This document shows, in pieces, positions 28,384 to 57,776 of a stretch of 64,000 bases of DNA. The stretch is taken from assembly GCA_002964805.2 (NCBI GenBank), contig PUDQ02000027.1, positions 62,001-126,000 of the forward strand, in the 5' to 3' direction. The notes under the pieces were generated by a model. The model ran no database searches. It had not been told where the DNA came from and saw only the letters and a program-made list of their open reading frames with translations. A program made the translations under genes and the position numbers. Each line of letters starts with the position of its first letter. Position 1 is the stretch's first letter. Source of the stretch: Trametes villosa. Taxonomy: Eukaryota; Basidiomycota; Agaricomycetes; Polyporales; Polyporaceae.

Positions 28384-29524
28384 ATTCCAGTATTGGGACA
28401 TTTGGATTAGCGTGTCTGTATCATTAGGTAGTATCTGGAAGGAATGTGGATTTTTGGGCTCTTTAGCTAGTTCGTGCTTCCCGTGATGAGGCAGCGAGAA
28501 GAAATATGGTATTGACGCACGGCCCCTCGTGCGGTGGACGTATCGACTCTGTGAGATGTAGGGGTAGTGGAAGGGCGTTGCCGCTCATTCAATCCTTCGT
28601 CTACGTTATGAGTCTCGAGATGGTGCAGGTCAAATTTCTCACGCCCTGACATCGTCTTCCACCACCACGACAGACCACGAAATCTATTCGCCAATGCACC
28701 GTAGCGTGGATGCCTCTCGAACACCCCTCAGGAATATACCAAGGGCCCACACTTTGTGGAATTAGAGTGTCTCTAACACGACAGGAAGGTCGAATACCGG
28801 AGAATGCCACAACGAATTAAACCGTCAATACACTATCTTCGCAGAAGCAAGATGTTGTTCCTACTCGCGGCCGTTTACGAACTGGGTGACGTCTCCATAT
28901 TTCCAGCAGTATCACTACTAGGGTATGAATTGCACAGCTAAATTCACAGATGTCTACTGGTTTCCTGGATTTGCGAACATCCGGTCATAAACCTGGACTC
29001 AAACGAGCGGAACGACGCTCCTCCGAGCTATCAGCATACTACGGGGGCTGAAGAGGTCCGCAATCGGCGAAATGCTCACTGCTCGACATACTCCATAGAT
29101 CTCCTCGCGTACAAGTGCGCCTACGCTGCCGCCTTCCGGTCGTTGAACCGGTAATGCGAACACTGGCCCTCCGAGTGCTCCGCGCACTCCGCAGCACGCT
29201 CTCGACTCGAGCTCAAGCGACACTGCAGCCGAATATCATGTCCTCGGTACTGCGCGCCGTGTGTGACCTGTTCTTTCCATACATATTCTGTCATTGATCT
29301 TTACCCCCCGGGCCCCAGTGGCAACTACACGGGCAACGGCCAGCGCCCATGCACTCTCGCCGACGGCGGGCGCACTCCCGCTGACGGCTTGAGCTGACTG
29401 CACATCATACGGCTCCTCTGGACGACAAACTGGTGCGCACAGCCGTTGGGCAAGATATATAAACGATGCACCGCAGAGTCTGTCCAGCCCAACCTACCAA
29501 CTCGTCTCTCGCCAGATCAGGACA
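28384..29524. other. Intergenic region; distal part belongs to the inverted duplication
   Basis: 28384-28820 has no recognisable gene. From about 28823 the sequence is closely similar to the reverse complement of 45187-45886, upstream of FAD oxidase copy 2. The duplicated segment therefore includes about 700 bp of promoter DNA. Confidence 0.6.
29454..29463 (+). promoter_or_regulatory. TATA box of FAD oxidase copy 1
   Basis: ATATATAAAC lies about 62 bp upstream of the ATG at 29525. The same box, inverted, precedes copy 2 at 45248-45257. Confidence 0.6.
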
Positions 29525-31588
29525 ATGCGGTTCGTCAGGGCACTCCTCCCCATCGCCTTCGCCGGTTTCGTTTCAACAAGCTATGGTCAAGACACGTCCC
29601 GCTGTCGGTGCACTGCCAACGATGCGTGCTGGCCTTCTCAAGACGACTTCGACACCCTCGCGCAACAGGTCTCTCAGCCACTGATTCGCCCCTTCCCGCC
29701 GGCTAAACCTTGCTATACCGACGCGAACTCGCCCGAGTGTGCGGACATTATGGCAAACTGGACGGACGGCAACTGGCGATCGGACCAGCCGGGGGCCATG
29801 GAGTCGCCCAACTTCGAGTCCTTCACGTTCCCCAACGGCACCATCGACGCTTGCTTCTTCAATGTCTCGCTCGGGTTCCCGTGCGACCAAGGGAGCATCT
29901 CCGTCATCGGCGTCGAGGCACACACCGTCAGCGATATCCAGGCCGCGGTCAAGTTCGCTGCTGAGCATAACCTTCGTCTTGCGATCAAGAATACAGGGTA
30001 TCGTAGTACATTTCTTCGCGGACGTGGCATCCCGACTAACTACGGAGCCTTTAGTCATGACCTCCTCGGGCGGAGTAACGCGAGAGGCTCTTTCGTGATA
30101 TGGACCCACCGCATGAAGAATATCACCCTCCACGAAAGCTTCACGCCTACCGGGGCTCCTTCGGACGAAACCTACGAATTTGGTATTATACTTCGTACTT
30201 GTATCGTGCCATAGATCTAATGCAGTCTTTATAGCGGTCAGTGTAGCCGCCGGGGTGCAGTGGCATGAGGTGTACGACGTCGTCAATGCATCCGGACGTC
30301 AAATGGTCGGCGGTGTCACCTCCGGCGGATCCGTGGGTGCAGGGGGCGGTTGGCCTCTCGGCGGAGGGCACAGCGCCCTTTCCCCGACATACGGTCTCGG
30401 TCAGTCGGTTCATCGTCGAGGCACACTGATAGTTTTTGCTAACATATTGGCACTTAGGCGTCGACAACATCCTCGAGATAACCGTTGTCCTCTCAAACGG
30501 CACCTTCGTCACCGCCAATACCCACCTGCACCCCGACCTCTTCTGGGCTCTCAGGGGAGGCGGCGGCGGCACGTTCGGGATCGCCACCTCGGTCACATAC
30601 CGCACGCAACCAATTGTGCCCGTCATCGGCGCCTTCCTTACTGCTAGTGTCAGCGCCTCTCAGCCGAACGCCGCCATCCGCGAAGCCTTCACCGAGCTCG
30701 TGCGCATTACCCCGAACCTAACGGACAAGGGCTGGGGCGGTTACGTGGTGCTCTCACTTCCGGGCGTCTCCGACGTAGTCTCGATGGACCTGGCCTACAT
30801 TGTCCCGAACGCATCCTGGGCAGAGGCGAACGCCACGATCCTTCCGTATTTCAACCTCGTGCAGGAGCTCGCGGCGAACTCGAGCGGGGATGCAGCGCCA
30901 TTGACTGTGTCGACCGCGTTCACCACGCCGTTCGCGTCGTTCCTCGACTGGTACAACTTCCACATTCCCCACACGGGCGGGGTGGGCGACATGGTTGAGG
31001 TCGGGTGTTGGCTGCTTCCGCGGACTGCGCTTGAGAGCTCTCCTGAAGAGGTTGCTAACGTCGTGCTTGAGAACGCCGGGGGTTTCTAGTGAGCAGTCCT
31101 TGTCGCACACAGCACGTCTTGCCAGTGATTCTGATACGTATTGTTCGCAGCATGGTCGCTGGAGGGGCTGTCAGCAGCGTTGACCCCGATGCAGTCGGCA
31201 TCAACCCCGCTTGGCGCCAGGCCGTCGTGGAGGTCGCCACCGGGATGGTGTGGTCGGAGGGGATGACGACTGACGAGATCAACGCGCAGCGGGAGGTGCT
31301 CATGGAGCGCACGGCGAAGTTGCGTGCGTTGGCCCCGGAGTCCGGCGTTTACTTCAACGAGGTGCGTACGAGACAGCGCTCCTCGCGAATTCATCTTTCG
31401 ATACTGGACTAACGTAACCCACTTGTCAGGCATCCCTCTTCGAACCCGACTTCAAACAGGCGTTCTTCGGGTCGCACTACGACGCTTTGCGCGCGGTCAA
31501 GCGGGCGTACGACCCCATCGACTTGTTCCTGGTCACGGAGGGAGTCGCGTCCGACGAGTGGGACAAGGACCTTAACTGTCGCCTCTGA
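29525..31588 (+). CDS. Secreted FAD-linked oxidase, BBE-like family, copy 1
   Basis: Exons 29525-29997, 30055-30182, 30235-30399, 30458-31088, 31151-31361 and 31430-31588 give about 588 residues. The N-terminus (MRFVRALLPIAFAGFVSTSYG) is a clear signal peptide, followed by a Cys-containing stretch (CRCTANDACWPS) and several N-glycosylation sequons. The PCMH-type FAD domain is recognised by SVIGVEAHTVSDIQAAVKFA, by NTG-HDLLGRS assembled across an intron, and by the Gly-rich GGVTSGGSVGAGGGWPLGGG. The C-terminus YDPIDLFLVTEGVASDEW fits the berberine-bridge segment. The His of the NTGHD motif is the expected covalent FAD attachment site. I see no CxxV/G-type cysteine in SALSPTYGLGVDN, so a single rather than double covalent link is inferred. 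Likely an extracellular oxidase of alcohols, sugars or small secondary compounds using oxygen; the substrate is not deducible. Confidence 0.88.
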
Positions 31589-36247: not shown

Positions 36248-38515
36248 ATGGCGAACGAGTCGGCCAGACCCATCTTCGTGTATTACTGCTCGGGCCATGG
36301 TGAGTACACTTTCCGTTGTTTGAGCATGGATTGGCGTACCTGACCTCGGCATACGCAGGCTACGGCCATGCCACCCGGGTCTCTGCCTTTGCATCCCATC
36401 TACTACGCCTCGAACCGAGGCCCACCGTGCATATTGTATCGTCTGCCCCAAAGCATGTATTCTCGGACAGTGTAGCCCTTGGAGGTACGTCGATCTCTAT
36501 AGGAACTTTGAATGCGTCTCACTCGCCACCCGTAGCCTTGTATCGTAACGCAAACATAGACCCTGTAATTGTGCAACCACTAGCGTGAGTTCTATGGCAT
36601 ATGCGCAACGTATCAATATCCCTACTAACGTACTCATAGATACCGCGTCGACCGACAGAAGAGCGTCGAGGTACTAGAGAAATTCCTGACGGAAAAGGAT
36701 CGCAAAGTAGCAGAAGAGTCGCAATGGCTCCGGTCTATCAAAGCCGACTGCGTCTTGAGCGACGCTGCTTTCCTTGGTTGGTATGTACAGCAAGGTGCCT
36801 TGTCGTCTCGCTTATTCACATGTATTTCGCTCGTGTAGCCTAGCCGCCAACGAAGCCGGCATTCCTTCGGTGCTGATCACCAACTTCTCGTTCGACTCGG
36901 TGTACAGCTACCTCTCCACCCCCTTCATCGACGAGGTTCCGCCCCCGGACCCCACTTTGGACGCTCTGCATCCACACGCCAAACCCCAGGAAGAACTCGC
37001 GCCGGATGTGCCCATTTCCCTCGATGAGCTAGCCCCCCTCGTCAAACAGATTCACGATGGCTACCGCTGTGCAGACCTTCTCCTTCGTCTCCCCGGAGCG
37101 ATACCCCTGCCTTCATTCGCGCTACAGCCCAGTCTGCCTTCTCAAGATTGGGTCGACATACCGATGCGCGCATTCAAGCCGTTCGTAGTCGACCACCTCA
37201 CCCAGTCACCCTCCACATACGAGCTGCAGCCGCAGATTCCCTTCCCACCCTCATACCCGCCCAAGCCACTCGCCCGGGAAGCGCGCGCCGCTCCGCTGCT
37301 GGTGCGCTCCACGGACCCCGAAGTGTACACTCCCGAAGGCCGGAGTCGACTGCTCACCTCGATCGGCGTTCCTGCGCACCTGCACGACCCCGAGCAGACG
37401 AAGATCCTCATCGTCTCCTTCGGCGGGCAGGTCTTCCACAAGCCGCACAGCCGTTCGCACAGTCGCACCCCGTCGAAGTCCGCAACGCCTAACGGCCTCG
37501 TTCCCGGACTTCATCGCTCCCCAGACGGCTCCATGCATCCGGCAGATGCCCGTGTGCCTCTCAAAGACACGCAGGACTCGGCGGTCAACCCCGAACAGCA
37601 CGCACAGGCGCTCAGCGACGCGCTGAAGAACGCTAAGCTCAGCCGTCCCGACACGCCCCCTACCGCTACACAGGAGAAAGCACCCGCCCGTGCGCTGCCT
37701 GCCCATCTCAACCTCGACGCAGATCACCCGCACACTCGCCCACGCGGCCACTCACAACTACGACTCGCAGGCGCGCCGCCCGCCGCGGTGCCCACATCCC
37801 CGCGCATCCCCTCGCAAATGCCCGCGTTCGTGACGATTCCCCCGACCCCGCTTCTTCTCAACGGGTCCGATGCGCCCGACTACAGCTGGGGGAACGCACA
37901 CATCGGAGCAGGGGAGCTCCAGCTCGAGGCTGGCGTGGAGGACGAGCCGCGGATTCTACCGGACGCGTCGTGGGTCGCGATCGTGTGCGGGGTGTCGAAG
38001 GACTGGGGGCGCGAGGACGGGGAGGAGCTCCCGGAGAACTTCTTCGTCGCGCCGCGGGACGTGTACATGCCGGACTTGACTGCGGTCGCGGACGTCCTCC
38101 TCGGCAAGCTAGTGCGTGCCCTTCCATCCCCTCCACTTCTCTTTTGCGAGCCCTTGCTAATGCAAGTGAAAATGCGCAGGGATACGGCACGGTGTCAGAG
38201 TGCGTGGACGCATGCACGCCGTTCGTGTACGTCCCGCGGCCGCTATTCATCGAGGAGCACGGGCTGCGCCTCTTCCTCGCGCACGCGGGCGTCGGCGTCG
38301 AGCTCGCGCGCGCGCAGTACGAGCAGGGCGAGTGGGCGGACGCCGTCGAGGAGGCGTGGCGCGCAGGCCGCGGGAGGAAGGCGGCGAAGCGGCGCGAGGG
38401 CGAGACGGGGGTAAGGCGCAGGGAGGGCGCGGAAACGGCAAGGGGCGTGGTGGAGTGGGTTGCGCGGTGGAAGGAGGGTGTGGCGAGGAACGCGGGGGTG
38501 ATGGTGGGTGCTTGA
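36248..38515 (+). CDS. Arabinokinase-type glycosyltransferase-like protein
   Basis: Exons 36248-36299, 36359-36484, 36536-36584, 36640-36780, 36839-38111 and 38180-38515 give about 658 residues. The N-terminus (IFVYYCSGHG-YGHATRVSAF), the stretch WLRSIKADCVLSD and then AGIPSVLITNFSFDSVYSY resemble the GT-B-like N-terminal domain of plant L-arabinokinase. So does the C-terminal block LLGKL-GYGTVSECVDACTPFVYV. The GHMP kinase half of the plant enzyme is absent. A low-complexity Ser/Pro/His insertion at about residues 322-480 separates the halves of the fold, between ILIVSFGGQVFHKP and the WVAIVCGVSKDWG region. A cytosolic sugar-nucleotide-binding or glycosyltransferase role is inferred from the fold only; the substrate is unknown. 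The extreme C-terminus is Arg/Glu-rich. Confidence 0.75.
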
Positions 38516-43111: not shown

Positions 43112-45186
43112 CTAAAGACGGCAGTTCAACTCCTTGTCCCACTCATCAGATGCGACGCCCTCCGTGACCAAGAACAAGTCGATGGGGTCGTACGTCCGCT
43201 TGATCGCGCGCAAAGCGTCGTAGTGCGACCCGAAGAACGCCTTCTTGAAGTCGGGCTCGAAGAGGGATGCCTGGGACGGATGTTGCGTTAGCCAAGCCTC
43301 GCAACGTATCGGAAGACAAGCCCGCGGGGACGCCGGGGAGCACTGTTTCATACGCACCTCGTTGAAGTAAACGCCAGACTCGGGAGCCAACGCACGCAGC
43401 TTCGTCATGCGCTCCTTGAGTACATCCCTCCGCGCGTTGATCTCATCTGCACTCGCGCCCTCCGCCCACGGCACTGCCCCTGTGGCGACCTCCACTACGG
43501 CGTCGCGCCAAGCGGGGTTGATGCCGGTCGCGTCGGGGTCGACGCGGCTGACAGCGCCTCCGGCAACCATGCTATAAGCAAGAGGCGTCAGACAAGCCCG
43601 GCTGCGAGCTATAACGACTGCTTACTAGAAACCCACGACATTCTCAAGCACAGCGTCAGCCACTTCTGCAGGGGCACTCTCGAGCGTGGTCCGAGGCAGG
43701 AGCCAGCACCCGAGCTCCACGATGCCGCCCACCCCACCCGTTGCGGGGATGTGCTGGTTGTACCAGTCGAGGAACGATGCGAACGGTGTCGTGAATGCAG
43801 TCGGTACCACTAGTGGCACCGCGTCTCCGCTCGAGTTCGCCGCGAGCTGCTGAATGAAGTTGAAGTACGGAAGGATCGTAGCATTCGCCTCTGCCCAAGA
43901 CGTGTTGGGGACGATGTAAGCCAGGTCCATCGTGACTGTGTCGGCCAGCCCTGCAAACGAGAGCGTCGTGTAACCGCCCCAGCCCTTATCCGTCAGGTTC
44001 GGAGTGAGTCGCACCAACTCCGTGAAGGCTTCCCGGAGGGCGGCGTTCGGTTGAGAGGCGTTGACGCTAGCGTGCAGGAAGGCGCCGATGACGGGCACAA
44101 TGGGTTGCGTGCGGTAGGTAACCGAGATGGCAATCCCGAACGTACCACCGCCGCCTCCCCGAAGAGCCCAGAAGAGGTCGGGGTGTAGGTGGGTGTTGGC
44201 GGTAAGGAAAGTGCCGTTGGAGAGGACTAGGGATATTTCGAGAATATTGTCGACGCCTGAGGGCCGATTGACATGTCAGAATCGCCATAGTATTCCTGAA
44301 CAGGACGCCGCTCACCTAGCCCGTATGTCGGCGAAAGGGCGCTGTGCCCTCCTCCGAGAGGCCAGCCACCTCCCGCGCCTACGGATCCGCCGGAGGTGAC
44401 GCCCCCGACCATCTGTCTTCCGGACGCATTGACGGCCGCATATGCTTCATGCCACTGTACTCCGGCATCCACAGTAACGGCTGGAATCAGCAGTCAGATC
44501 AATTATCCAGGGTGAGAACGGAATCTCAATACCAAAGTCGTAGGATTCGTTCGAAGGGGCCGTAGCAGGCGTGAAGCTGCGGTGAACGGTGATGTTCTTC
44601 ATGCGGTGAGTCCAGATCACGAAAGATCCTCTCGCGTTGCTCCGCCCAAGGAGATCATGCCTACAGACGCCATATTTAGTCGGAATAAAGCTACCACGGA
44701 AAATATACGTTACCCTGTGTTCTTGACCGCAAGGCGGAGATTATGCTCGACAGCGAACTTGACCGCGGCCTGGATGTCGTTGACGGTGTGTGCCTCGACC
44801 CCGATAACAGACACGCTGCCTTGCTCGCACGGGATTCCGAGAGAGACGTTGAAGTAGCAAGCGTCGATGGTGCCGTTGGGGAATATGAAGGACTCGAAGT
44901 TGGACGCCTCCATAGCTCCTGGCTGGTCCGATCGCCAGTTGCCGTCCGTCCAGTTCGCCACAACGTCCGCACACTCGGGCGATTTCGCGTCGGTATAGCA
45001 CGGTTTGGCCGGCGGGAAAGGGCGAATCAGCGGCTGAGAGACCTGCTGTGCGAGGGTGTCGAAGTCGTCCTGAGAAGGCCAGCACGCATCGTTGGCAGTG
45101 CACCGACAGCGGGACGTGTCTTGCCCATAGCTCGTCGAAACGAAGCCGGAGAAGGCGATGGGGAGGAGTGCTCGGACAAACCGCAT
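43112..45186 (-). CDS. Secreted FAD-linked oxidase, BBE-like family, copy 2
   Basis: Minus-strand exons 44714-45186, 44533-44660, 44316-44480, 43626-44256, 43358-43571 and 43112-43270 give about 589 residues. Exon sizes equal those of copy 1 except that exon 5 has one more codon. The signal peptide (MRFVRALLPIAFSGFVSTSYG), the NTG-HDLLGRS flavin site, the Gly-rich loop GGVTSGGSVGAGGGWPLGGG and the C-terminal DPIDLFLVTEG are all intact. All introns have canonical borders, so it appears functional. Differences from copy 1 are scattered substitutions. It is in the same orientation as copy 3, with 799 bp between them, and inverted relative to copy 1. An extracellular oxidase is inferred; the substrate is unknown. 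Confidence 0.88.
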
Positions 45187-45985
45187 TGTCCTGACCTGGC
45201 GAGAGACGATTTGGTAGGTTGGGATGGACAGACTCTGCAGCGCATCGTTTATATATCTTGCCCAACGGCTATGCGCACCAGTTTGCCGTCCAGAGGAGCC
45301 GTATGATATGCAGTCAGCTCAGGCTGTAAGCGGAATCGCGCCCGCCGTCAGGAGTGTAGGCGTGCCGGCCGTTGCCCGTGTAGTTGTCACTGGGGCCCGG
45401 GGGTAAAGATCAATGACAGGACGTATGTGGAAAGAACGGGTCACGCACGGGGCGCAGTACCGAGGACATGATATTCGGCTGCAGTGTCGCTTGAGCTCGA
45501 GTCGAGAGCTTGCTGCGGAATGCACGCAGGACTCGGAGGGCCAGAGTTCGCATTACCGGTTCAAACGGCCGGAAGGGCGGCAGAATAGGCGCACTTGTAC
45601 GAGGAGATCTGTGGAGTATGTCGAGCAATGGACATTTCGCCGATAGCGATCCTCTTCAGCCCTCGTAGTATGCTGATAGCTCGGAGAAGCGTCGTTCCAC
45701 TGCTTGTTGAAGACCCGGTTTCTGACCAGATGAACGCAAACCCGGAAAACTAGTAGACATTCTGTAAAGTTAGCTGTACGTTTCGCATCCCTGCGTTACT
45801 GCCGAAACTGTGGAGACGTCACCCAGTTCGCAATCGGCTGCGAGTAGTAAGAACATCTTGCTCCTACGAAGATAGTGTATTGACGCTTTGTCGCAGTCTC
45901 CGAACCCTCACCGATGTAAGGAAGCTTCTCTTGAAACCCTGTGGACTGTGGTCCTGCCAGTATCGACAGAGGGAGTCACGTCAAG
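45187..45985. other. Intergenic region holding the promoter of FAD oxidase copy 2
   Basis: 45187-45886 is the duplicated promoter segment described separately. The last 100 bp, next to the stop of copy 3, show nothing recognisable. Confidence 0.55.
45248..45257 (-). promoter_or_regulatory. TATA box of FAD oxidase copy 2
   Basis: Read on the minus strand this is GATATATAAA, about 62-71 bp upstream of the ATG at 45186, at the same spacing as in copy 1. Confidence 0.6.
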
Positions 45986-48043
45986 CTAGAGACGACAGTT
46001 CAACTCCTTGTCCCACTCGTCAGACGCGACGCCCTCCGTGACCACGAATAGATCGATGGGGTCGTACGCCCGCTTGATCGCCCGCAAAGCGTCGTAGTGC
46101 GACCCAAAGAACGCCTGCTTGAAGTCGGGCTCGAACAGGGACGCCTAGCAGCAAGGGGGCCGTATCAGTGAGAACAGCGCCGCGGGACACAAGACGGACT
46201 CATTTCGCACGCACCTCGTTGAAGTATACGCCCGACTCCGGTGCCAATGCGCGCAGCTTCACCATGCGCTCCTTGAGAACGTCCCGCTGGACGTTGATGT
46301 CGTCGGCCGTTGTGCCCTCTGGCCACACGGCCCCGGTGACGGCGTGCACGGTGGCCTTACGCCAGGCTGGATTGATGCCGGCTGCGTCCGCGTCGACACG
46401 GTTGACAGCCCCTCCTGCAACCAGGCTGTGGAGACAACGGGTCAGCGAAGCCCTGCTGCGCGCAATGATGACTGCTACACGTACTAGTAACCCACAACAT
46501 TTTCCAGCACGACGTCGGCCACATCCGCCGGGGCGCTCTCGAGAGCAGTCCGCGGCAGGAGCCAGGACCCGAGCTCTAGGATGTCGCCCACCCCGCCGGT
46601 TGTGGCGATATGGTGGTTGTACCAGTCGAGGAACGACATATACGGTGTCGTGAACGCGTAGTCCACCGTCAAAGGAACAGCGTCCCCGCTCGTGTTAGCT
46701 GCGAGTGCCTGCACGAGGTTGAAGTACGGGATGATCGTCGCATTCGCCTCCGCCCAGGATGCGTTCGGGATGATGTAGGTTATGTCGATCGAGACGGTGT
46801 CGGCCAGGCCCGCAAACACCAGCGTCGTGTACCCGCCCCAGCCCTCGTCTGTCAGGTTCGGGGTGATGCGCACCAGCTCTGTGAAGGCTTCGCGAAGGGC
46901 AGCGTTTGGCTGGGAGGCGTTGACGCTAGCGTGCAGGAAGGCGCCAATGGCAGGCACGATGGGATGCGTGCGGTATGTGACCGAGGTGACGATCCCGAAC
47001 GTGCCGCCCCCGCCTCCCCGAAGAGCCCAGAAGAGATCGGGATGCAGGTGAGCATTGGCGGTGATAAACGTGCCGTTCGAAAGAACAAGGGATATTTCGA
47101 GGGTGTTGTCAACGCCTGAAAGCCGATATGTTTGCTTTGTTTAGAGGGTGCGTGGTGTAATGGAACAACCTCTCACCAAGACCGTAGGTTGGTGAAAGGG
47201 CACTGTGCCCTCCGCCAAGGGGCCAGCCTCCCCCTGCACCAACGGACCCGCCAGCCGCAACGCCTCCAACCATTTGCCGTCCGGATGCGTTGACGGCCGC
47301 GTAGGCTTCATGCCACTGCACTCCAGCACCTACTGTGACAGCTGCAGAGAGATTCAGCTTCACAGAAAACGCCAGTTCGTGAACTCGCTACCAGAATCGT
47401 AAGTTTCATTTGGAGGAGCGCCAGTGGGCGTGAAGCTTGGGTGCACGGTGATGTTCTTCATGTGGTGGGTCCAGATCACGAAAGAGCCCCTTGCGTCGCT
47501 CCGCCCAAGGAAGTCATGCCTATCGAAGCGGTCTTCGGTAGCAGAAACCTTGAAGGAGGGGAGCGCACGTTACCCTGTGTTTTTAACTGCAAGCCGGAGG
47601 TTATGCGTGGCGGCGAACTCGACTGCGACCTGAATATCGCTGACAGTGTGTGCCTCGACGCCAATGACGGACACGCTCCCTTGCTCGCACGGGGACCCGA
47701 GGGAGACGTTGAAGTAGCAAGCGTCGATGGTACCATTGGGGAACGTGAAAGACTCGAAGTTGGGCGATTGCATGGCCCCCGGCTGGTCCGATCGCCAGTT
47801 GCCATCCGTCCAGTTCGCCACAACGGCCGCACACTCGGACGAATGCGCGTCGGCATAGCAGGGTTGAGCGGGAGGGAATGGATGGATCAGCGGCTGGGAG
47901 ACCTGTTGCGCAAGCGTGTCGAAGTCGCGCGGAGAAGGCCAGCATGCATCGTTGGAAGTGCACCGGCAGCGCGGAGGGGCCTGCTCACAGCTTGAGACAA
48001 TGGAAGAGAAAGCAAGTAGCAAGAGAGCTCTGAGGCGCCACAT
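45986..48043 (-). CDS. Secreted FAD-linked oxidase, BBE-like family, copy 3
   Basis: Minus-strand exons 47574-48043, 47392-47519, 47177-47341, 46485-47115, 46215-46425 and 45986-46144 give about 587 residues. Intron positions and phases match copies 1 and 2; exon 1 is one codon shorter. The signal peptide (MWRLRALLLLAFSSIVSS) has diverged more than the mature protein. The flavin site reads NTG-HDFLGRS and the Gly-rich loop GGVAAGGSVGAGGGWPLGGG. The C-terminus DPIDLFVVTEGVASDEW is conserved. No frameshift or stop is seen. This copy is more distant from copies 1 and 2 than they are from each other, and its upstream DNA is not part of their duplication, so it probably arose earlier. Confidence 0.88.
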
Positions 48044-48771
48044 CGTCCCAGCCTGGCAGCCGTTGACTTAGACTAGCAACTGAGCGGGATGGTGCGCATC
48101 AGCGACGCATCTTTTTATCCATCTTGTGACCGACGATGCGTGGTGGGTCGACTGTGTGGGGCCCGGAGTCGGAGTGAACTGTCAGCAGAGAGGCTGCGCC
48201 GGGTGTACAGGCGTACTGGTCTCGTACTGCGCAAGCATGTCCGCCGAACCTGGAAAGTGAGAACTGATGATGTGTGGTGAACATCGCAGACAAATCACTC
48301 ACAGCGGGCGCAGCTACTGAGTAGGACGTTCAGCTGCGGTGTTGGACACCCTCCTCGGGTGCCCGGTGGCGAGGTGCGCAGGATGTTGCGCAGCATGAAC
48401 TTATGGCCGCAGTGTGACGAGTCCTGAGGCATTGATGCCCCGAAGTGGGACTCGTGATCCTGCATACCCGGACATACCTCGTGTGAATCCCGTTCGGTGA
48501 GATGGTCGTCGAGTGGAGACTCCTTATACGTTTTGAGCATACAGAGAGGCTACCAGTGCGAACTGTCCAGTTTTGACCAGCGGAAAGACCCACTATGTGC
48601 ACAGCAGCAGTCGGGGCCGTGGAAGAGGTCCGCAGCATGCACACCATCCACGTACATTTCAAAGAGCAATGCCAGAGACGGCACGTTCTGTCTTCGCTCA
48701 AGAGGACCCAAGAGGATGCAGAGGACATACAAATTGATGGTAGACCGTACGTACCCAATTGGTGAGTACCA
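48044..48771. other. Intergenic region with promoter of copy 3 and an exon-like open frame
   Basis: A GGATAAAAAG box on the minus strand (48111-48120) lies about 70 bp upstream of the copy 3 start. On the plus strand, 48595-48771 is an open frame of some 57 codons with protein-like composition, ending at a GTGAGT donor-like sequence where the hAT element is inserted. No family is recognised. Confidence 0.4.
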
Positions 48772-48779
48772 GAGGTGCG
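48772..48779. repeat. Target-site duplication, left copy (GTGAGTAC)
   Basis: The 8 bp GTGAGTAC immediately precede the left end of the hAT element and recur exactly at 55553-55560 after its right end. Eight-bp duplications are the hallmark of hAT transposition. Confidence 0.9.
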
Positions 48780-49088
48780 CGGGTCAGGCTCTGACCCCTT
48801 GACTCGGTCAAGTGGAGCTGGGGTCCGACCAAAAGTCCGACTCGGGGTCGGACCGAGGGCAGCTGGGGTCAAGGGGTCAGTGTTTAACACGTGACGTCCT
48901 AGTCCGAGCCCTTGGCGCGACGCGTCTCTGCGCGCGCCCTCGCGACGCGCCGCCGCGCGGCGCGCGCCCTCGCGCCATTGCCCGCCGCGGCGCAACCAGG
49001 CACTAGTGAGACAATGACGTAGGATACACACTCAGCGGGGGGTAGGGGCGAGGTTGGCGGGACAGAATATCTTAGCTACCACTTGTAC
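48780..49088 (+). other. Unique 5' end segment of the hAT element
   Basis: This 309-bp segment starts with the terminal inverted repeat CAGAGGTGCGC and several TCCGAC-type subterminal motifs, followed by a very GC-rich CGCG tract near 48930-48985. It is not repeated at the other end. I read it as the 5' end of an ordinary hAT copy. No transposase start codon can be identified in it. Confidence 0.7.
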
Positions 49089-52000
49089 CAGAGGTGTGCT
49101 TGACCTGGTCGGACCCTGGTCAGACCCAAGCCTGACCCCGGTCGGACCCCAAAAGGTCGGACCAGAGGTCGGGGTCAGCACGTGAGAGCGTGGGAAAAGG
49201 GCGCGACCCCGCCCCCGGACGAGGTCAGCGCACGAGCTGCCCGCGCGCGGTGCTCCAGTGATCGCGCGTCCTGCGAAATGCCACTACTATAGGTTCGAAT
49301 TATCAAGGATATATACAGCATAGCTTATATACATGAGCATCACAATCCGGGTGCTAGGCGAGGATAAGAAACAAACGAGGCCCTCGAGAAGGTGCCTGAA
49401 GAATCAACCTGAGAGCGCAGACTGCAGTGCAGCACGCTCACGCTGTACGAGCTGCGAACGTAATGCGCGTTCTCCGCGGGACCAGATATCAGCGGAGATC
49501 TTCAGGAACTTCTCGCCGTTATAGTCGAAGAGGTTGCGCAGGTGGAAACCGTCCTGAGGCTCGATCTCTGGGTTCAGAGATGCTGTCTCCTCGTCGAGGC
49601 TGGCCGCCGCGACCATGTCGTTGACGAGTGCCGAAAAGGGTGGAAGATCCGATGAAAGCCTCTCCGAGGGGCCGGCGGGCGTGTGATCAACCGAGGGGCC
49701 GGCGGTGTGCTCGAGCGGCTCAGCAACGCGCGCGAGTTCGTTCTCGTCCTCATCCGAGTCGCTCATATCCTCCTCGCGGCCGTGGGAGCTGGGAGTTGAA
49801 GGGCTTGTCTTCGGGTAGCGCCGTAGGATGTCGTCCTTGACGAGCACAGTCTTCCGGACGCGTTCAGACTTCAGCCGGCTACGGAGCTTGGTCTGAACAG
49901 CTCCCATCTGGCTGAACTTCCGTTCGCTAGCTGCCGAGTTTGCGACCATACTGAGAATCCGCATGGCGAACGTCACGAGGCCCGGGGCACCGTTGAGAGC
50001 ACCGGTCGCGAAGCGGCGCCAGACCGCGACGAGGTTGATTTCGACATGCTGCACAAGCTGTGAATATCGGGGCTGATAACTAAGTGAGAATCACCTCTTA
50101 CCTCGATGGCGGCGCGCTTCTTCCAGTCGTCGAGCTGTAATCCTTCGTCTGACCACTTGCCGACTCTTGCCAGATACTCCTCGAAAGCGGTGACCAGCTC
50201 CAAGTTCGCCTCCTGCTGCATCATCCGCCGGTAAACCCGACGGAAAACGCTGAGAAGCTCGCCAGGAGTCAGGGCTGGATTCTCCGAGTTGAAGCAGTCT
50301 CGTCTGGCCCAGGGGTTGAAGACGAGTGCCAAGACGAAGATCTCGCGGTTCGAGCCCTGCTTCAGCCATCGTGCCTCAAGCTTGGCCAGAACCGTGCGCG
50401 CGGTCTCGGGGTCATACACAGAGAAGTCCGAGAACATCGCGAAGAGCTTCCCGAGGGTTATGAGCACCACATCAAGCCGTGTACTGTCCGCCTGTGTGAT
50501 GTCGGTCGCAACGGCGAAGGGCTCTAGGTATTTTCGCAACCTAAGAATGTCAGTAAGTGAGTAGCAGTTCATCGGGCGAAGAGTTTGTTACTGTCTACCT
50601 TCTCAGCTCATCCCAGAATGTCTGATTCAGCGTTGAGGACAACAGCTGCTTCGCCTTCTCCTGCTTCTGTGTAGTCTCCGCGATATTCTTCCCCTTCGGT
50701 ACCAGCTGCACAAGTTGCTCGAGCTTCGAGGTCACAAGACACCGGACAGCGGCCTCGATCTCCAGGAGACGGACGCAGGTCCGATAGCGCGAAGACCACC
50801 GAGTCGCCACCGGATAGAGGAGATTGACGACGCGGCCGTTATACTGGTGATGCTGCTCGACGCGAAGCATCGCGAGGGCGCGCGAGTGGTTATTGAACCA
50901 CTTGATGACCTCCTCGGCCTGGTCCATGACGCGTGCGTATGTTCCGTGCGCCTTGAAGAAGTCGCCAACGAGGAGATTGACCTGCAAAAAGGTGAGGAAC
51001 TACAATTCACAAAATATTATTGGGGTATTCACCTGATGCGCCCAACAGTCAAGCGTTACGAGCCATGGGAACTGTGCACGCAAGAGGTTGCGCATAGCCT
51101 TCGCATCGCCTCCTGCATCCGTACAATATGCGACAACAGTGGTAGATAAGTACTCCATGCAGTACTTGACCTCCGCGCTAATGAGCTCAAACAGGTTCTC
51201 CGCGGTTTTGGCGACTGCGCTAATGTTGAAGACATTGAGGAGCCATGGCTGGGGCAAGGTCAGCGGCTGCGTGCACCGAGCCCATATACAGGTATAGTAG
51301 GGTGCTCACCGTATACTCAACATTAATTAGCGATGCCACAAGTGAGTCCCGCGTGACATTCTTCCAGCCGTCGCACTGACCCGTCGCGTACCGCCCAAGG
51401 ACCCCAGCCTGCATGCGACCTGTTGCCTTCTCCGCCTCCTTATCGAGAATGCGCCCAGCGAGTGTCTTACGAGATGGCAACATGGCCGACGCAACCCATC
51501 GTTTGAAGAAGATGCGAAAATACGGGTTATCGGCGGCTACCCAGGCGATGTTGCATGCAACGAAGAGCTGACACAGGTCGGACTCGAACTCGTCCTGGAG
51601 CTTGTCCGTCCACGGTCCCACGGGAGCTGTCTGCCCATAGAAAGTGTCGCTGTCCTCGGTCCGAAGGCGCTTCGCAGCTCGGGACTCAGCATCGGGTGCA
51701 AGGTTCCCGGAAGCAGTGGACAAGTCCTGAAGAGGTGTCGGCTCGAGTGGAGTTGCCGGGGCAGTCGCCGCCGCAGAAGGCTCGAGTTGAAACCCTGGCT
51801 GACTAGTGGACGCGGTCTGGCTTCCGACGGGCGGTACGTTCTCTTGATCTGGATGTGGACCGGCGACAGGTGGTGGTGGCTGCTTACGTCCCCTTCCGGT
51901 ACGCTCCTCGAGAGCTTTCTTTGCTGCACTCAGGAGCTCGGTGTCGTGCTTGTGGTGAGGGCAGCGCAGGATATGCCGAATGAGGATGTCGATTTTGCCG

Positions 52001-52312
52001 CAGAGTGGACTCGCGATCTCCTGTGTGATGACTGCACGGTGCATTGTGTATCTAAGTGATATGCCCTAATACCGGTGATTTGACAAGGCTGCGGACTGAC
52101 CTTCGGCTTCAACAACAGACTCAGCGCGCACCTCTCGTCCATCCCCGGCACTTATCGCCTCGTCTGTCTCCTGTTCAATTCTTTGATGTACAGCATATCG
52201 GACACATCGACGGCAGAAGGCTTTCCAGTGAGTTTTATCATTCTTGAACTTCGAGTCGCCACGATGGAAATGCTGCCACCACGGCGAGAGCGTGTTGCCA
52301 GTACGAGGTGTA
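49089..52312 (-). repeat. Left arm of the palindromic hAT element
   Basis: Position x in this arm pairs with 104641 minus x in the right arm. All open frames recur with identical lengths in both arms. I found one clear mismatch (50436 against 54205, a Met/Thr difference). The arm begins exactly at a transposon terminus (CAGAGGTGTGC). Confidence 0.92.
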
Positions 52313-52377
52313 GTCATGCGAAGCTCAGTACACCTCGTACTGGCAACACGCTCTCGCCGTGGTGGCAGCATTTCCAT
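49404..52377 (-). CDS. hAT transposase, left copy (5' end replaced)
   Basis: Minus-strand exons 52101-52377, 51310-52031, 51033-51248, 50599-50981, 50102-50540 and 49404-50057 mirror the right copy. The native N-terminus is missing. The frame is open through the palindrome centre to an ATG at 52377, inside the opposite arm, so the first 22 or so residues would come from antisense sequence. Conserved parts: a BED-like zinc segment (WWQHFHRGDSK, then CRRC); GQCDGWKNVTRDSLVASL with a putative catalytic Asp; VAYCTDAGGDAKAM; the CWAHQVNLLVGD motif; and the dimerisation motif NSAASERKFS near the C-terminus. It is about 896 residues if the chimeric ATG is used. The gene body appears intact and could encode most of an active transposase. 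Confidence 0.75.
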
Positions 52378-55237
52378 CGTGGCGACTCGAAGTTCAAGAA
52401 TGATAAAACTCACTGGAAAGCCTTCTGCCGTCGATGTGTCCGATATGCTGTACATCAAAGAATTGAACAGGAGACAGACGAGGCGATAAGTGCCGGGGAT
52501 GGACGAGAGGTGCGCGCTGAGTCTGTTGTTGAAGCCGAAGGTCAGTCCGCAGCCTTGTCAAATCACCGGTATTAGGGCATATCACTTAGATACACAATGC
52601 ACCGTGCAGTCATCACACAGGAGATCGCGAGTCCACTCTGCGGCAAAATCGACATCCTCATTCGGCATATCCTGCGCTGCCCTCACCACAAGCACGACAC
52701 CGAGCTCCTGAGTGCAGCAAAGAAAGCTCTCGAGGAGCGTACCGGAAGGGGACGTAAGCAGCCACCACCACCTGTCGCCGGTCCACATCCAGATCAAGAG
52801 AACGTACCGCCCGTCGGAAGCCAGACCGCGTCCACTAGTCAGCCAGGGTTTCAACTCGAGCCTTCTGCGGCGGCGACTGCCCCGGCAACTCCACTCGAGC
52901 CGACACCTCTTCAGGACTTGTCCACTGCTTCCGGGAACCTTGCACCCGATGCTGAGTCCCGAGCTGCGAAGCGCCTTCGGACCGAGGACAGCGACACTTT
53001 CTATGGGCAGACAGCTCCCGTGGGACCGTGGACGGACAAGCTCCAGGACGAGTTCGAGTCCGACCTGTGTCAGCTCTTCGTTGCATGCAACATCGCCTGG
53101 GTAGCCGCCGATAACCCGTATTTTCGCATCTTCTTCAAACGATGGGTTGCGTCGGCCATGTTGCCATCTCGTAAGACACTCGCTGGGCGCATTCTCGATA
53201 AGGAGGCGGAGAAGGCAACAGGTCGCATGCAGGCTGGGGTCCTTGGGCGGTACGCGACGGGTCAGTGCGACGGCTGGAAGAATGTCACGCGGGACTCACT
53301 TGTGGCATCGCTAATTAATGTTGAGTATACGGTGAGCACCCTACTATACCTGTATATGGGCTCGGTGCACGCAGCCGCTGACCTTGCCCCAGCCATGGCT
53401 CCTCAATGTCTTCAACATTAGCGCAGTCGCCAAAACCGCGGAGAACCTGTTTGAGCTCATTAGCGCGGAGGTCAAGTACTGCATGGAGTACTTATCTACC
53501 ACTGTTGTCGCATATTGTACGGATGCAGGAGGCGATGCGAAGGCTATGCGCAACCTCTTGCGTGCACAGTTCCCATGGCTCGTAACGCTTGACTGTTGGG
53601 CGCATCAGGTGAATACCCCAATAATATTTTGTGAATTGTAGTTCCTCACCTTTTTGCAGGTCAATCTCCTCGTTGGCGACTTCTTCAAGGCGCACGGAAC
53701 ATACGCACGCGTCATGGACCAGGCCGAGGAGGTCATCAAGTGGTTCAATAACCACTCGCGCGCCCTCGCGATGCTTCGCGTCGAGCAGCATCACCAGTAT
53801 AACGGCCGCGTCGTCAATCTCCTCTATCCGGTGGCGACTCGGTGGTCTTCGCGCTATCGGACCTGCGTCCGTCTCCTGGAGATCGAGGCCGCTGTCCGGT
53901 GTCTTGTGACCTCGAAGCTCGAGCAACTTGTGCAGCTGGTACCGAAGGGGAAGAATATCGCGGAGACTACACAGAAGCAGGAGAAGGCGAAGCAGCTGTT
54001 GTCCTCAACGCTGAATCAGACATTCTGGGATGAGCTGAGAAGGTAGACAGTAACAAACTCTTCGCCCGATGAACTGCTACTCACTTACTGACATTCTTAG
54101 GTTGCGAAAATACCTAGAGCCCTTCGCCGTTGCGACCGACATCACACAGGCGGACAGTACACGGCTTGATGTGGTGCTCATAACCCTCGGGAAGCTCTTC
54201 GCGACGTTCTCGGACTTCTCTGTGTATGACCCCGAGACCGCGCGCACGGTTCTGGCCAAGCTTGAGGCACGATGGCTGAAGCAGGGCTCGAACCGCGAGA
54301 TCTTCGTCTTGGCACTCGTCTTCAACCCCTGGGCCAGACGAGACTGCTTCAACTCGGAGAATCCAGCCCTGACTCCTGGCGAGCTTCTCAGCGTTTTCCG
54401 TCGGGTTTACCGGCGGATGATGCAGCAGGAGGCGAACTTGGAGCTGGTCACCGCTTTCGAGGAGTATCTGGCAAGAGTCGGCAAGTGGTCAGACGAAGGA
54501 TTACAGCTCGACGACTGGAAGAAGCGCGCCGCCATCGAGGTAAGAGGTGATTCTCACTTAGTTATCAGCCCCGATATTCACAGCTTGTGCAGCATGTCGA
54601 AATCAACCTCGTCGCGGTCTGGCGCCGCTTCGCGACCGGTGCTCTCAACGGTGCCCCGGGCCTCGTGACGTTCGCCATGCGGATTCTCAGTATGGTCGCA
54701 AACTCGGCAGCTAGCGAACGGAAGTTCAGCCAGATGGGAGCTGTTCAGACCAAGCTCCGTAGCCGGCTGAAGTCTGAACGCGTCCGGAAGACTGTGCTCG
54801 TCAAGGACGACATCCTACGGCGCTACCCGAAGACAAGCCCTTCAACTCCCAGCTCCCACGGCCGCGAGGAGGATATGAGCGACTCGGATGAGGACGAGAA
54901 CGAACTCGCGCGCGTTGCTGAGCCGCTCGAGCACACCGCCGGCCCCTCGGTTGATCACACGCCCGCCGGCCCCTCGGAGAGGCTTTCATCGGATCTTCCA
55001 CCCTTTTCGGCACTCGTCAACGACATGGTCGCGGCGGCCAGCCTCGACGAGGAGACAGCATCTCTGAACCCAGAGATCGAGCCTCAGGACGGTTTCCACC
55101 TGCGCAACCTCTTCGACTATAACGGCGAGAAGTTCCTGAAGATCTCCGCTGATATCTGGTCCCGCGGAGAACGCGCATTACGTTCGCAGCTCGTACAGCG
55201 TGAGCGTGCTGCACTGCAGTCTGCGCTCTCAGGTTGA
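52264..55237 (+). CDS. hAT transposase, right copy (5' end replaced)
   Basis: Exons 52264-52540, 52610-53331, 53393-53608, 53660-54042, 54101-54539 and 54584-55237 join in frame to about 896 residues, of which the first 22 or so are antisense-derived. The order is: a BED-like zinc finger (SPWWQHFHRGDSKF, HWKAFCRRC); a Pro-rich linker; a DUF659-like segment with CDGW; TDAGGD; CWAHQVNLLVGDFF; a long alpha-helical insertion region; and the hAT C-terminal dimerisation segment ANSAASERKFSQMG. The C-terminal tail is acidic (DMSDSDEDENEL). hAT transposases cut and paste elements with 8-bp target duplications, as seen here. The missing native start probably prevents normal expression unless the chimeric ATG works. 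Confidence 0.8.
52313..52328. other. 16-bp spacer at the palindrome centre
   Basis: The only non-palindromic bases between the arms (GTCATGCGAAGCTCAG). Both reading frames cross it without a stop. It may mark the joining point of two truncated copies. Confidence 0.85.
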
Positions 55238-55552
55238 TTCTTCAGGCACCTTCTCGAGGGCCTCGTTTGTTTCTTATCCTCGCCTAGCACCCGGATTGTG
55301 ATGCTCATGTATATAAGCTATGCTGTATATATCCTTGATAATTCGAACCTATAGTAGTGGCATTTCGCAGGACGCGCGATCACTGGAGCACCGCGCGCGG
55401 GCAGCTCGTGCGCTGACCTCGTCCGGGGGCGGGGTCGCGCCCTTTTCCCACGCTCTCACGTGCTGACCCCGACCTCTGGTCCGACCTTTTGGGGTCCGAC
55501 CGGGGTCAGGCTTGGGTCTGACCAGGGTCCGACCAGGTCAAGCACACCTCTG
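52329..55552 (+). repeat. Right arm of the palindromic hAT element
   Basis: Mirror of the left arm. It ends with GCACACCTCTG, the right terminal inverted repeat, directly followed by the target duplication. TCCGACC-type motifs cluster in its last 100 bp. Confidence 0.92.
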
Positions 55553-55560
55553 GTGAGTAC
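55553..55560. repeat. Target-site duplication, right copy (GTGAGTAC)
   Basis: Exact copy of 48772-48779. Joining the flanks restores an empty site in which GTGAGTAC occurs once, 115 bp downstream of the MocA oxidoreductase stop codon. Confidence 0.9.
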
Positions 55561-55674
55561 TGGTGGCCAGAAATTGTTATGCGTTCAGTAGCCGTGAGAA
55601 AACTACTGTAGGTATGATACGCTACACGCGCATACCGTCTATCCAAGTCCCTCCTTTCCTCCTCCCGCGCTCAC

Positions 55675-57070
55675 TCAGGCCTCAGGCGTCGGCACCCTCC
55701 TCCCAAGGCCCGCCTTCTCATACACCGCGTCGATCGTCTCCATCTGCGCGACGCTGCTCTCGAGCGTCACCCAATGCGCAGGCTCGCGTCCGCGCACGCG
55801 GTCCACGAACGCCTCGAGCTGGTACCGGTACGTGCTCCACCACGGCTCGCCGCGCGTGCCCCAGCGCGGGCCGCCCGCGTAGTGCTTCTCCGTCGTCGTC
55901 TGCCCCGTGCGCTTGTCGGTGACCGTGATGTAGTGGTACAGGTGCGGCATCATGAAGCTAGAGATGAATATGTTAGGAATCTCGCAGCAACAGGGAGAGG
56001 CGGGGAGCACGGAGGGGAACATACTTGTAGAAGTAAATCGTCGCATGCTCCGTCTCAATCTCGATGCTCGGCATCTCCCACGCACGCGGTACGAGCCCAA
56101 ACAAATTCGCGCGGTCCATATCGCTGTAAATCCGCCCCTCGACCATACGCCCGTCAACGTCGTACCGCAGCACCGCGTCCATCGCCTCGTCGACGCGCGG
56201 GTCCTCGCGCGTAGGCCGCGCGCTCGCGGCGACGACCTCGCGCGGCGCGCCCGCTCCGAGGAAGTAGCGCGTCGCGGAGACGACGTAGGTCATGTCCATG
56301 AGCGAGCCGCCCGCGAGCGCGTACTGCCAGCGGATGTCGGAGCGCGTGATCGAGCCCGTGGGCGAGGTCATGCGTGCGTAGGTGCGGAGGATGGCGCCGT
56401 ATTTGCCGCTGTCGAGGAGGGCTTTTACGGTGTGGGCGGCGGGCTGGAGGGAACAAAGAGCGTTGAGCGAGAGGCGGCGGGGGAAAGTGATAGTATGCGT
56501 ACGTGGAACTGCCAGTGGAAGGCTTCGAGGAGGACGAGATTCTTCTCCTGCGCGAGCTTGGCGATTTCACGCGCCTCGTCAGCATTGGCGGTGAGCGGCT
56601 TCTCAAGGAGGACGTGCTTTCCTGCATTCAGCGCTTTCTTCGCCCATTCTACCATCCAGTCAGACGGCTGACTGCAGGATATAACCATCATGTACTCACT
56701 ACCGTGCAGCCCGTTCGGAAGCGAGATGTACACGGCGTCGATGCCGGGCTCGCTCAGGAGCTCGTCGTAGGAGCCGTATGCCTTGGGGATACCGTACTTC
56801 TTCGCGTCGGCCTGTGCCTGCTTGATGTTACGCGAGGCGATGGCGGATATGAGGACATCGCCGTGGCTCATGGCGGGCCGTAGTAAGGCAGCGGCGTTGA
56901 TCATAGCGGTCGAGAGCACACCGATGCGCAATGCATCGTTCGTCTTGGGCTTCTCGTGCCCTTTCTCGTAGAGGTATTGTTGGAGGAAAGTCGTGATCTG
57001 GAGGCGCGTGAGTTTAGGCGCACTATGTGGTGAATAATCCAGACAAACTGACCTGGAGGAGCATAGCCAT
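55675..57070 (-). CDS. Gfo/Idh/MocA family oxidoreductase
   Basis: Minus-strand exons 57053-57070, 56703-56997, 56503-56648, 56025-56443 and 55675-55957 give about 386 residues, the usual length of fungal members related to NADP-dependent D-xylose dehydrogenase. The first exon encodes only six residues (MAMLLQ). LRIGVLSTAMINAAAL is the nucleotide-binding start, AGKHVLLEKPLTAN carries the family EKP motif, and GGSLMDMTYVVSATRYF lies in the C-terminal alpha/beta domain. The 56649-56702 intron was inferred because it restores NGLHEWAKKALNAGKH. A soluble NAD(P)-dependent sugar or diol dehydrogenase is expected; the substrate is not proven. The hAT element lies 115 bp past its stop and may affect its 3' end. 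Confidence 0.85.
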
Positions 57071-57776
57071 GCTGAGTCGTTACTTGGTCGTGAAGTTGGT
57101 GGGGAGCGGTTGAAGAGAATATGTTCAATTTGAGAGCCTTCCGCCACCCCTGTCAGGGCGAGGGGTATATGTAGGCTGGGGGAGACTCGAGAACAGGGAG
57201 GACGACGTTATGACCTCATCGCAGGATCCACTCATACGTCGACGTCGCTCAGAGTCCAGCTCGACGTTCGAACGGCATCTCGAGCCGAGGAGCAGAATAT
57301 TTAGACCTCCAGTGCGTACCTGTATACGCTACCGGTGCTGTACTCTCTGGCGACTGGCCAGCCAACGTTTCCTGTGGGTGTGTGATTGGGCCTTTGCGCT
57401 TACCCGGCGAATTCATGGAACAGCGCAATCAATAGGAGCATTCAATTTCTGACTGTGCGCGTTATTCGTGAGCATTCGCACAGTCCTGAGTCATAGTTTG
57501 TCAGAACAGCTGGAGACCTCGAGACAGTATGAAGGTTAAGTATGTCGACGAGGATGATGCGGCACATAATGACTTGCGAATCACAAGCTAAGAGAGGCGG
57601 CAAATGCCGGTGGCGTGTGAAATCCGGAGGGGGCGGAGGGGCGGGGTAACCGGATGGGGAGACCCTCACTGCTGCACCGGGGTATTCGTCCTATCCTCGC
57701 TGCTTCATTGCGACCACGTCCTACCAAGAGCCTAGCTGCGCTCAACACATACGTTGTTGAGACTGGTGCACCTAGG
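57071..57776. other. Divergent promoter region
   Basis: About 700 bp between the MocA oxidoreductase (-) and the PEX26-like gene (+). A CATATA sequence near 57163-57172 could serve the minus-strand gene. An upstream in-frame ATG at 57654 could extend the plus-strand protein by 41 residues. Confidence 0.45.

Follow-up and report, generated by a model that had tools for sequence, protein, structure and literature searches.

A hAT element of 6,783 bp (48770-55552) was found in the window, i.e. the whole 64-kb stretch of DNA analysed here (bases 62001-126000 of contig C27 in a 46.7-Mb, 140-contig assembly), where it is flanked on either side by perfect 8-bp duplications and carries its transposase gene twice, in opposite orientations (Table 1). 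From left to right, it comprises a leader corresponding to bases 1-319, an inverted copy that extends from base 320 to the exact 3' terminus and a direct copy that lacks the first bases. The two copies form inverted-repeat arms (49087-52312 and 52329-55554) that differ at a single position pair (50436 with 54205) per 3,226 and that are separated by 16 bp; the two sides diverge immediately beyond, from 49086 and 55555 outward. The element proper accounts for 3,224 bp of each arm, with two further matching bases lying outside it on each side. An earlier, sequence-only reading of this DNA had described two 3,224-bp arms, a 16-bp spacer and a perfect 8-bp target duplication, all of which were recovered, together with the additional matching bases and the mismatch, while the element start, which it had set at 48780, lies 10 bp farther out. 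Single-base shuffling of the region 48501-56000 (20 replicates) gave exact inverted repeats of at most 12-18 bp, which excludes a chance origin; the palindrome is a confirmed feature of the sequence.

The octamer GTGAGTAC occurs four times in the window (also at 36300 and 41285) and is therefore weak evidence by itself. Combined with the termini, CAGAGGTGCGC at 48770 and GCACACCTCTG ending at 55552, which match as terminal inverted repeats at 10 of 11 positions, it provides good evidence for the proposed element ends. This octamer resembles the consensus of a 5' splice site. The spacer, at the turn of the palindrome, contains GCGAAGC, an unusually stable DNA mini-hairpin.

Table 1. Features of the palindromic hAT element, with positions given in the window
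Feature	Position	Strand	Basis
Left target duplication, GTGAGTAC	48762-48769		exact match to 55553-55560
Native 5' leader, bases 1-319, with 5' terminus CAGAGGTGCGC	48770-49088	+	C75:10594-10886, 86-87% identity
ACTTGTAC, putative 8-bp target in the leader where the inverted 3' end joined	49081-49088		comparison with C75
Left arm: inverted gene and whole 3' end, stopping exactly at the 3' terminus	49089-52312	-	inverted repeat, one mismatch
Left transposase gene, 876 aa	49404-52317	-	ATG 52317-52315, five introns; PF04937 and PF05699
16-bp spacer, native to the left copy and containing its start codon	52313-52328	-	C75 alignment
Right arm: direct gene copy and 3' end, starting TACACC, without leader	52329-55552	+	inverted repeat; C75 alignment
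Right transposase coding region, 874 aa, without native ATG	52330-55237	+	no internal stop
Right target duplication, GTGAGTAC	55553-55560		exact match to left copy

Transposase genes and family members

The left transposase gene is complete, with its ATG, five introns and no internal stop, while the right one, also free of internal stops, lacks its first two codons only (introns at 52541-52609, 53332-53392, 53609-53659, 54043-54100 and 54540-54583). An "almost complete" gene, as previously proposed for each arm, is an understatement: a full, uninterrupted transposase is encoded by both. All five introns retain their GT and AG ends in a relative found on contig C75 (see below). The sole difference between the arms lies in a codon that, read in the sense of the gene, is ATG in the left copy and ACG in the right one, as it is in C75; it is a C-to-T change within a CpG that replaces Thr by Met. 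On the plus strand, the frame of the right arm carries on leftwards past the centre without a stop and enters the left arm in antisense (52264-52329), and an ATG at 52264 would give it 22 residues in place of the lost start.

In the Pfam scan, the transposase matched Dimer_Tnp_hAT (PF05699; residues 680-735, E 1.8e-6, 28.1 bits vs a cut-off of 21.4) and DUF659 (PF04937; E 7.8e-9, above cut-off) and no further family at E <= 1. The C-terminal hAT dimerisation domain, the 8-bp duplication and the short terminal inverted repeats support assignment to the hAT superfamily, in agreement with the sequence-only reading. A protein search, in which the 7,995 candidates with most shared words were scored, returned 20 proteins at E <= 0.001, all bearing basidiomycete names; the best match among the scored candidates belongs to Trametes elegans (53% identity, 76% of the query), and that of T. 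cinnabarina displays 44% identity over 98% of the query. The host is accordingly likely to be a fungus of the polypore type.

In searches of the assembly, for which all match counts are lower bounds, the arm gave 10 matches corresponding to the two arms, one long match on C75 (90%) and seven terminal ones that reach at most the outer 192 bases, and the leader (48770-49088) gave 7, namely itself, C75:10594-10886 and five shorter ones, none of which extends past base 109. Outside C75, the DNA matches that were characterised correspond to miniature copies of 313 bp (C100; duplication 8/8) and 315 bp (C34; duplication 7/8), to a decayed copy (C87) and to the 3' end of a copy located 208 bp from the end of C51, whose interior is unassembled, so that the assembly may lack a longer copy; further matches, short and terminal, lie on C3, C32, C1, C82 and at C34:263227. 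At the protein level, at least 14 matches were found, six being pieces of the two window copies, three belonging to C75 and the remainder including more distant relatives, with two matches on C8 (42-49%) and three on C7 (29-44%). C75 is the sole other gene-bearing relative found at the DNA level, and its frame stops after 36 codons. A genome search for intact family members, as proposed with the sequence-only reading, yielded no intact single copy that might serve as a silencing target, whether the assembly was searched with DNA or with protein, and within what was scored the palindrome appears to hold the only intact frames of the family.

On C75, the leader match adjoins the gene match in the same orientation, which indicates that the native order is leader, start codon, gene. 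In the alignment, native C75 reads CTACCACTTGTAC TGAGCTTTGCGCATGAC TGCACCTCG where the window has CTACCACTTGTAC followed by the inverted 3' terminus; in other words, ACTTGTAC is followed by TGAGC in C75 and by the 3' terminus CAGAGGTGTGC in the window. The spacer, which on the minus strand consists of TGAGCTTCGCATGAC plus one preceding base, is the native continuation of the left copy, so that the start codon is kept in this copy alone. With a divergence of ca. 9-14%, C75 serves as a proxy for the true parent, of which the assembly yielded no copy. In the remaining downstream part of its contig, no 3' terminus was found for C75 (the best candidate has 6 mismatches in 16), nor does its left octamer recur there. 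The leader also contains a 30-bp repeat (80%) at 48916-48975, where C75 is 25 bp shorter.

The right copy differs from C75 at 250 of 2,919 aligned bases. Changes from C to T or G to A towards C75 amount to 98 (46 in CpG), while those in the reverse direction number 85; this mild bias may be due to methylation. RIP with a CpG preference has been reported for Ganoderma (PMC4457147). An action of RIP, a defence by point mutation, on the arms was considered and rejected, since they show one difference in 3,226 and since the right arm and C75 have CpG and TpA/ApT indices close to those of the rest of the window.

Searches of the assembly with the flanks revealed neither another haplotype nor an empty site. 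For the left flank (47700-48769), three partial matches (77-85%) were obtained, confined to the first 311 bases and thus distant from the element; for the right flank (55553-57200), the only match elsewhere spans 49 bp. Two blocks of the window (29198-31521 and 43205-47803) have many inverted exact 24-bp matches in common, and stretches in both match 47700-47994 at 84-85%; next to the element there is thus an array of gene copies that have diverged.

Origin of the palindrome

At the left junction (ACTTGTAC/CAGAGG), leader base 319 is joined to the exact 3' terminus, which matches the product of a hAT end attacking a target. Overall, we consider it probable that a hAT DNA transposon of a basidiomycete fungus turned palindromic by misdirected transposition and then became hairpin-capable. 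In a putative first step, a 3' end of the same molecule or of a sister copy would have joined the leader in inverted orientation between bases 319 and 320, with ACTTGTAC used as the 8-bp hAT octamer. In a second step, the centre would have settled at a 4-bp microhomology, TACA, either because a lone end attacked the leader of its own element or of a sister, with repair of the free end by copying from an intact sister at TACA, or because a hairpin lost ca. 341 bp at its tip, between two TACA repeats. From the alignment, this length is made up of the leader of the inserted copy (314 bp), the second target copy (8 bp), native sequence (15 bp) and the repeat (4 bp), and both histories, sister-copy repair or whole-copy insertion followed by the 341-bp loss, fit. 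At the centre, the native sequence of the left copy re-enters the octamer (TGTAC of ACTTGTAC) and then switches at TACA. The result is a leader, an inverted gene, 16 bp and a direct gene, all inside the outer target duplication. Single-ended transposition has been documented for piggyBac, and self-insertion for both piggyBac and Sleeping Beauty (PMC3952818). A second copy of ACTTGTAC is absent at the centre, which counts against this explanation and points to a self-insertion without complete duplication. A transposase-free template switch at the left junction was rejected: just 2 bp (AC) are common to the right flank and the junction falls at the exact terminus, so that insertion is preferred.

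One form of this history is shared with a nested insertion, in which a separate second element moved into the leader in inverted orientation and a hairpin-stimulated deletion between TACA repeats later removed the central 341 bp; since it comprises the first step above and one version of the second, the confidences given to the two overlap, and its distinct demand is a full second element and two separate events. Junction and centre are an exact fit to it, and the base of the stem lies between bases 319 and 320 by construction, so that a loop deletion there requires no coincidence. For this reason, the fact that the centre falls on the leader octamer was discarded as an argument favouring one-ended self-insertion over nesting. 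However, nesting requires a virtually identical second element, when the nearest relative found is ca. 9% different in the gene, and no intermediate was found; we regard it as possible but doubtful. That the palindrome formed elsewhere and then transposed here as a single unit would account for the retention of one 5' and one 3' terminus surrounded by a perfect 8-bp duplication. The sequence-only reading had indeed described it as "inserted as one unit", which is an interpretation: the same duplication is equally expected if an ordinary element landed first, hence may predate the palindrome, and formation in place fits equally well. The centre moreover occurs once in the 46.7-Mb assembly (exact matches only), and transposition as a unit is judged unlikely. 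Finally, long perfect palindromes are difficult to sequence and arms that differ at one position only might raise the suspicion of an assembly or library artefact, such as a fold-back read, or of a genuine nested element that lost part of its centre during assembly. However, a fold-back would have copied the flank, when the two sides differ as soon as the arms end and the assembly contains the flank adjoining the element only once; a random fold-back would also not produce an inverted copy that ends exactly at the transposon terminus. A simple fold-back appears unlikely, and artefactual explanations taken together have very little probability.

Hairpin potential of the locus

The leader points into the antisense arm of the inverted repeat, so that a transcript starting in it and continuing past the centre would be a hairpin. 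We infer that 48770-49088 holds or adjoins the native promoter; transcription driven from it would enter the antisense arm and, if continued, would give an RNA with a near-perfect 3.2-kb stem. A 616-nt RNA across the centre has a predicted minimum energy of -647 kcal/mol and, in the inspected parts of the structure, is paired apart from the turn. The GC pairs of the spacer GCGAAGC also form in the predicted RNA. Read-through from a minus-strand gene on the right would give a hairpin from the other side. The last open frame of this gene ends at 55675 and its upstream part matches GFO_IDH_MocA, being the only one of four scanned flanking frames that matched a family; frames 55675-56289 and 56425-57207 probably belong to one gene.

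Long double-stranded RNA from the locus could feed gene silencing. In the genome, matches above cut-off were found in 4 places by manual grouping for Piwi (C1, C47, C4 and C33), in 7 for RdRP and in 3 for Dicer_dimer, and weak ones in 3 places for DNA methylase (best 4.4e-11); these matches, obtained with introns left in, mark candidate genes. Several of those to Piwi and RdRP are crossed by stop codons, as expected from introns that are read through. Among 14 control genomes, Piwi was matched in 1, DNA methylase in 10, and RdRP and Dicer_dimer in none. Ganoderma sinense is a polypore. Such genes, small RNAs, methylated transposons and RIP have been reported for this species (PMC4457147). In the fungus studied here, Dicer, Argonaute and RdRP proteins could process the stem into small RNAs directed against the family. 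The possibility of a hairpin RNA, raised by the sequence-only reading, thus gains from the RNAi-family matches and from the placement of the leader. Its comparison with Mu killer of maize is structurally apt, whereas the simple read-through hairpin model for Mu killer itself has been contested by a later study (PMC3440606). There, Skibbe et al. describe, in plants with Mu killer silencing, short antisense transcripts that start from an internal promoter of the locus, and read-through sense transcripts accompanying silencing failure, while they allow that minor longer transcripts may still form hairpins (PMC3440606). The relevant question is therefore that of antisense RNA from the leader, for which the anatomy of the palindrome would provide, and a Mu-killer-like hairpin from this locus is plausible.

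The chances are nearly even that the palindrome is a dead by-product, with no read-through transcription and no small RNA, which is compatible with any of the origins above. The lack in the assembly of an intact single copy as target is in its favour, as is the fact that the hairpin transcript of Mu killer is itself contested (PMC3440606); it is at odds with the genome matches to RNAi families, with a leader that is retained and oriented into the repeat, and with near-identical arms and open frames. The most far-reaching reading, that one-ended self-insertion made, in a single accident, an autonomous hAT a self-promoted, full-length hairpin gene, which as a natural fungal counterpart of Mu killer silenced its own family until the palindrome was the only intact frame left, is speculative and improbable.

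Comparison with known systems

It has long been asked how a new transposon comes to be silenced in the first place. At this locus, a route by which a DNA transposon can become a possible source of hairpin RNA, with its own leader in the driving position, can be followed base by base. A literature search, in sources seen in part, found no palindromic gene-bearing hAT element in a fungus, which does not prove their absence.

In the double Ds of maize, a hAT element is inserted inverted into a copy of itself, and the inner element is recognised by both termini and its own 8-bp duplication. An inverted hAT within its own copy would also be present here, but the inner copy has a 3' terminus only, ACTTGTAC is complete on one side only and one copy lacks nearly all of the leader; the product is a near-perfect palindrome with a 16-bp centre and a full coding gene per arm. 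Chromosome-breaking double Ds has been mentioned (PMC3260210). An Arabidopsis Ds with an adjacent 598-bp inverted repeat likewise represents a hAT with a new inverted repeat inside its target duplication, although that repeat is described as vector DNA outside the terminus, when here it is the element itself (PMC1978519). Palindromic miniature elements derived from hAT are described in Atlantic cod, with consensus inverted repeats of ca. 600 bp, but these are reported as multicopy, with 167-169-bp tandem units and no transposase, in contrast to a single palindrome that has the gene twice (PMC12368964).

With regard to mechanism, piggyBac and Sleeping Beauty offer a parallel through their single-ended transposition and autointegration, in which ends attack their own transposon or one end acts alone; the assays are plasmid-based and concern other superfamilies, with no palindrome fixed at a chromosomal site (PMC3952818). 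In yeast, fold-back inversions at breaks arise when a 3' end primes on a short inverted microhomology, mostly of <14 bp, and are unlinked to a transposon end (PMC11724301). Mu killer, an inverted duplicate of MuDR, has in common with the palindrome a transposase gene in inverted duplicate at one locus and a possible hairpin RNA (PMC3440606). Silencing has been reported for Mu killer and would be a putative property of the hAT palindrome. The former derives from a Mutator element and has partial mudrA arms of ca. 1.3 kb, whereas in the latter the coding region is present in each arm together with the 3' end; and the two termini of Mu killer come from the same end, whereas the outer ends of the hAT palindrome are one 5' and one 3'.
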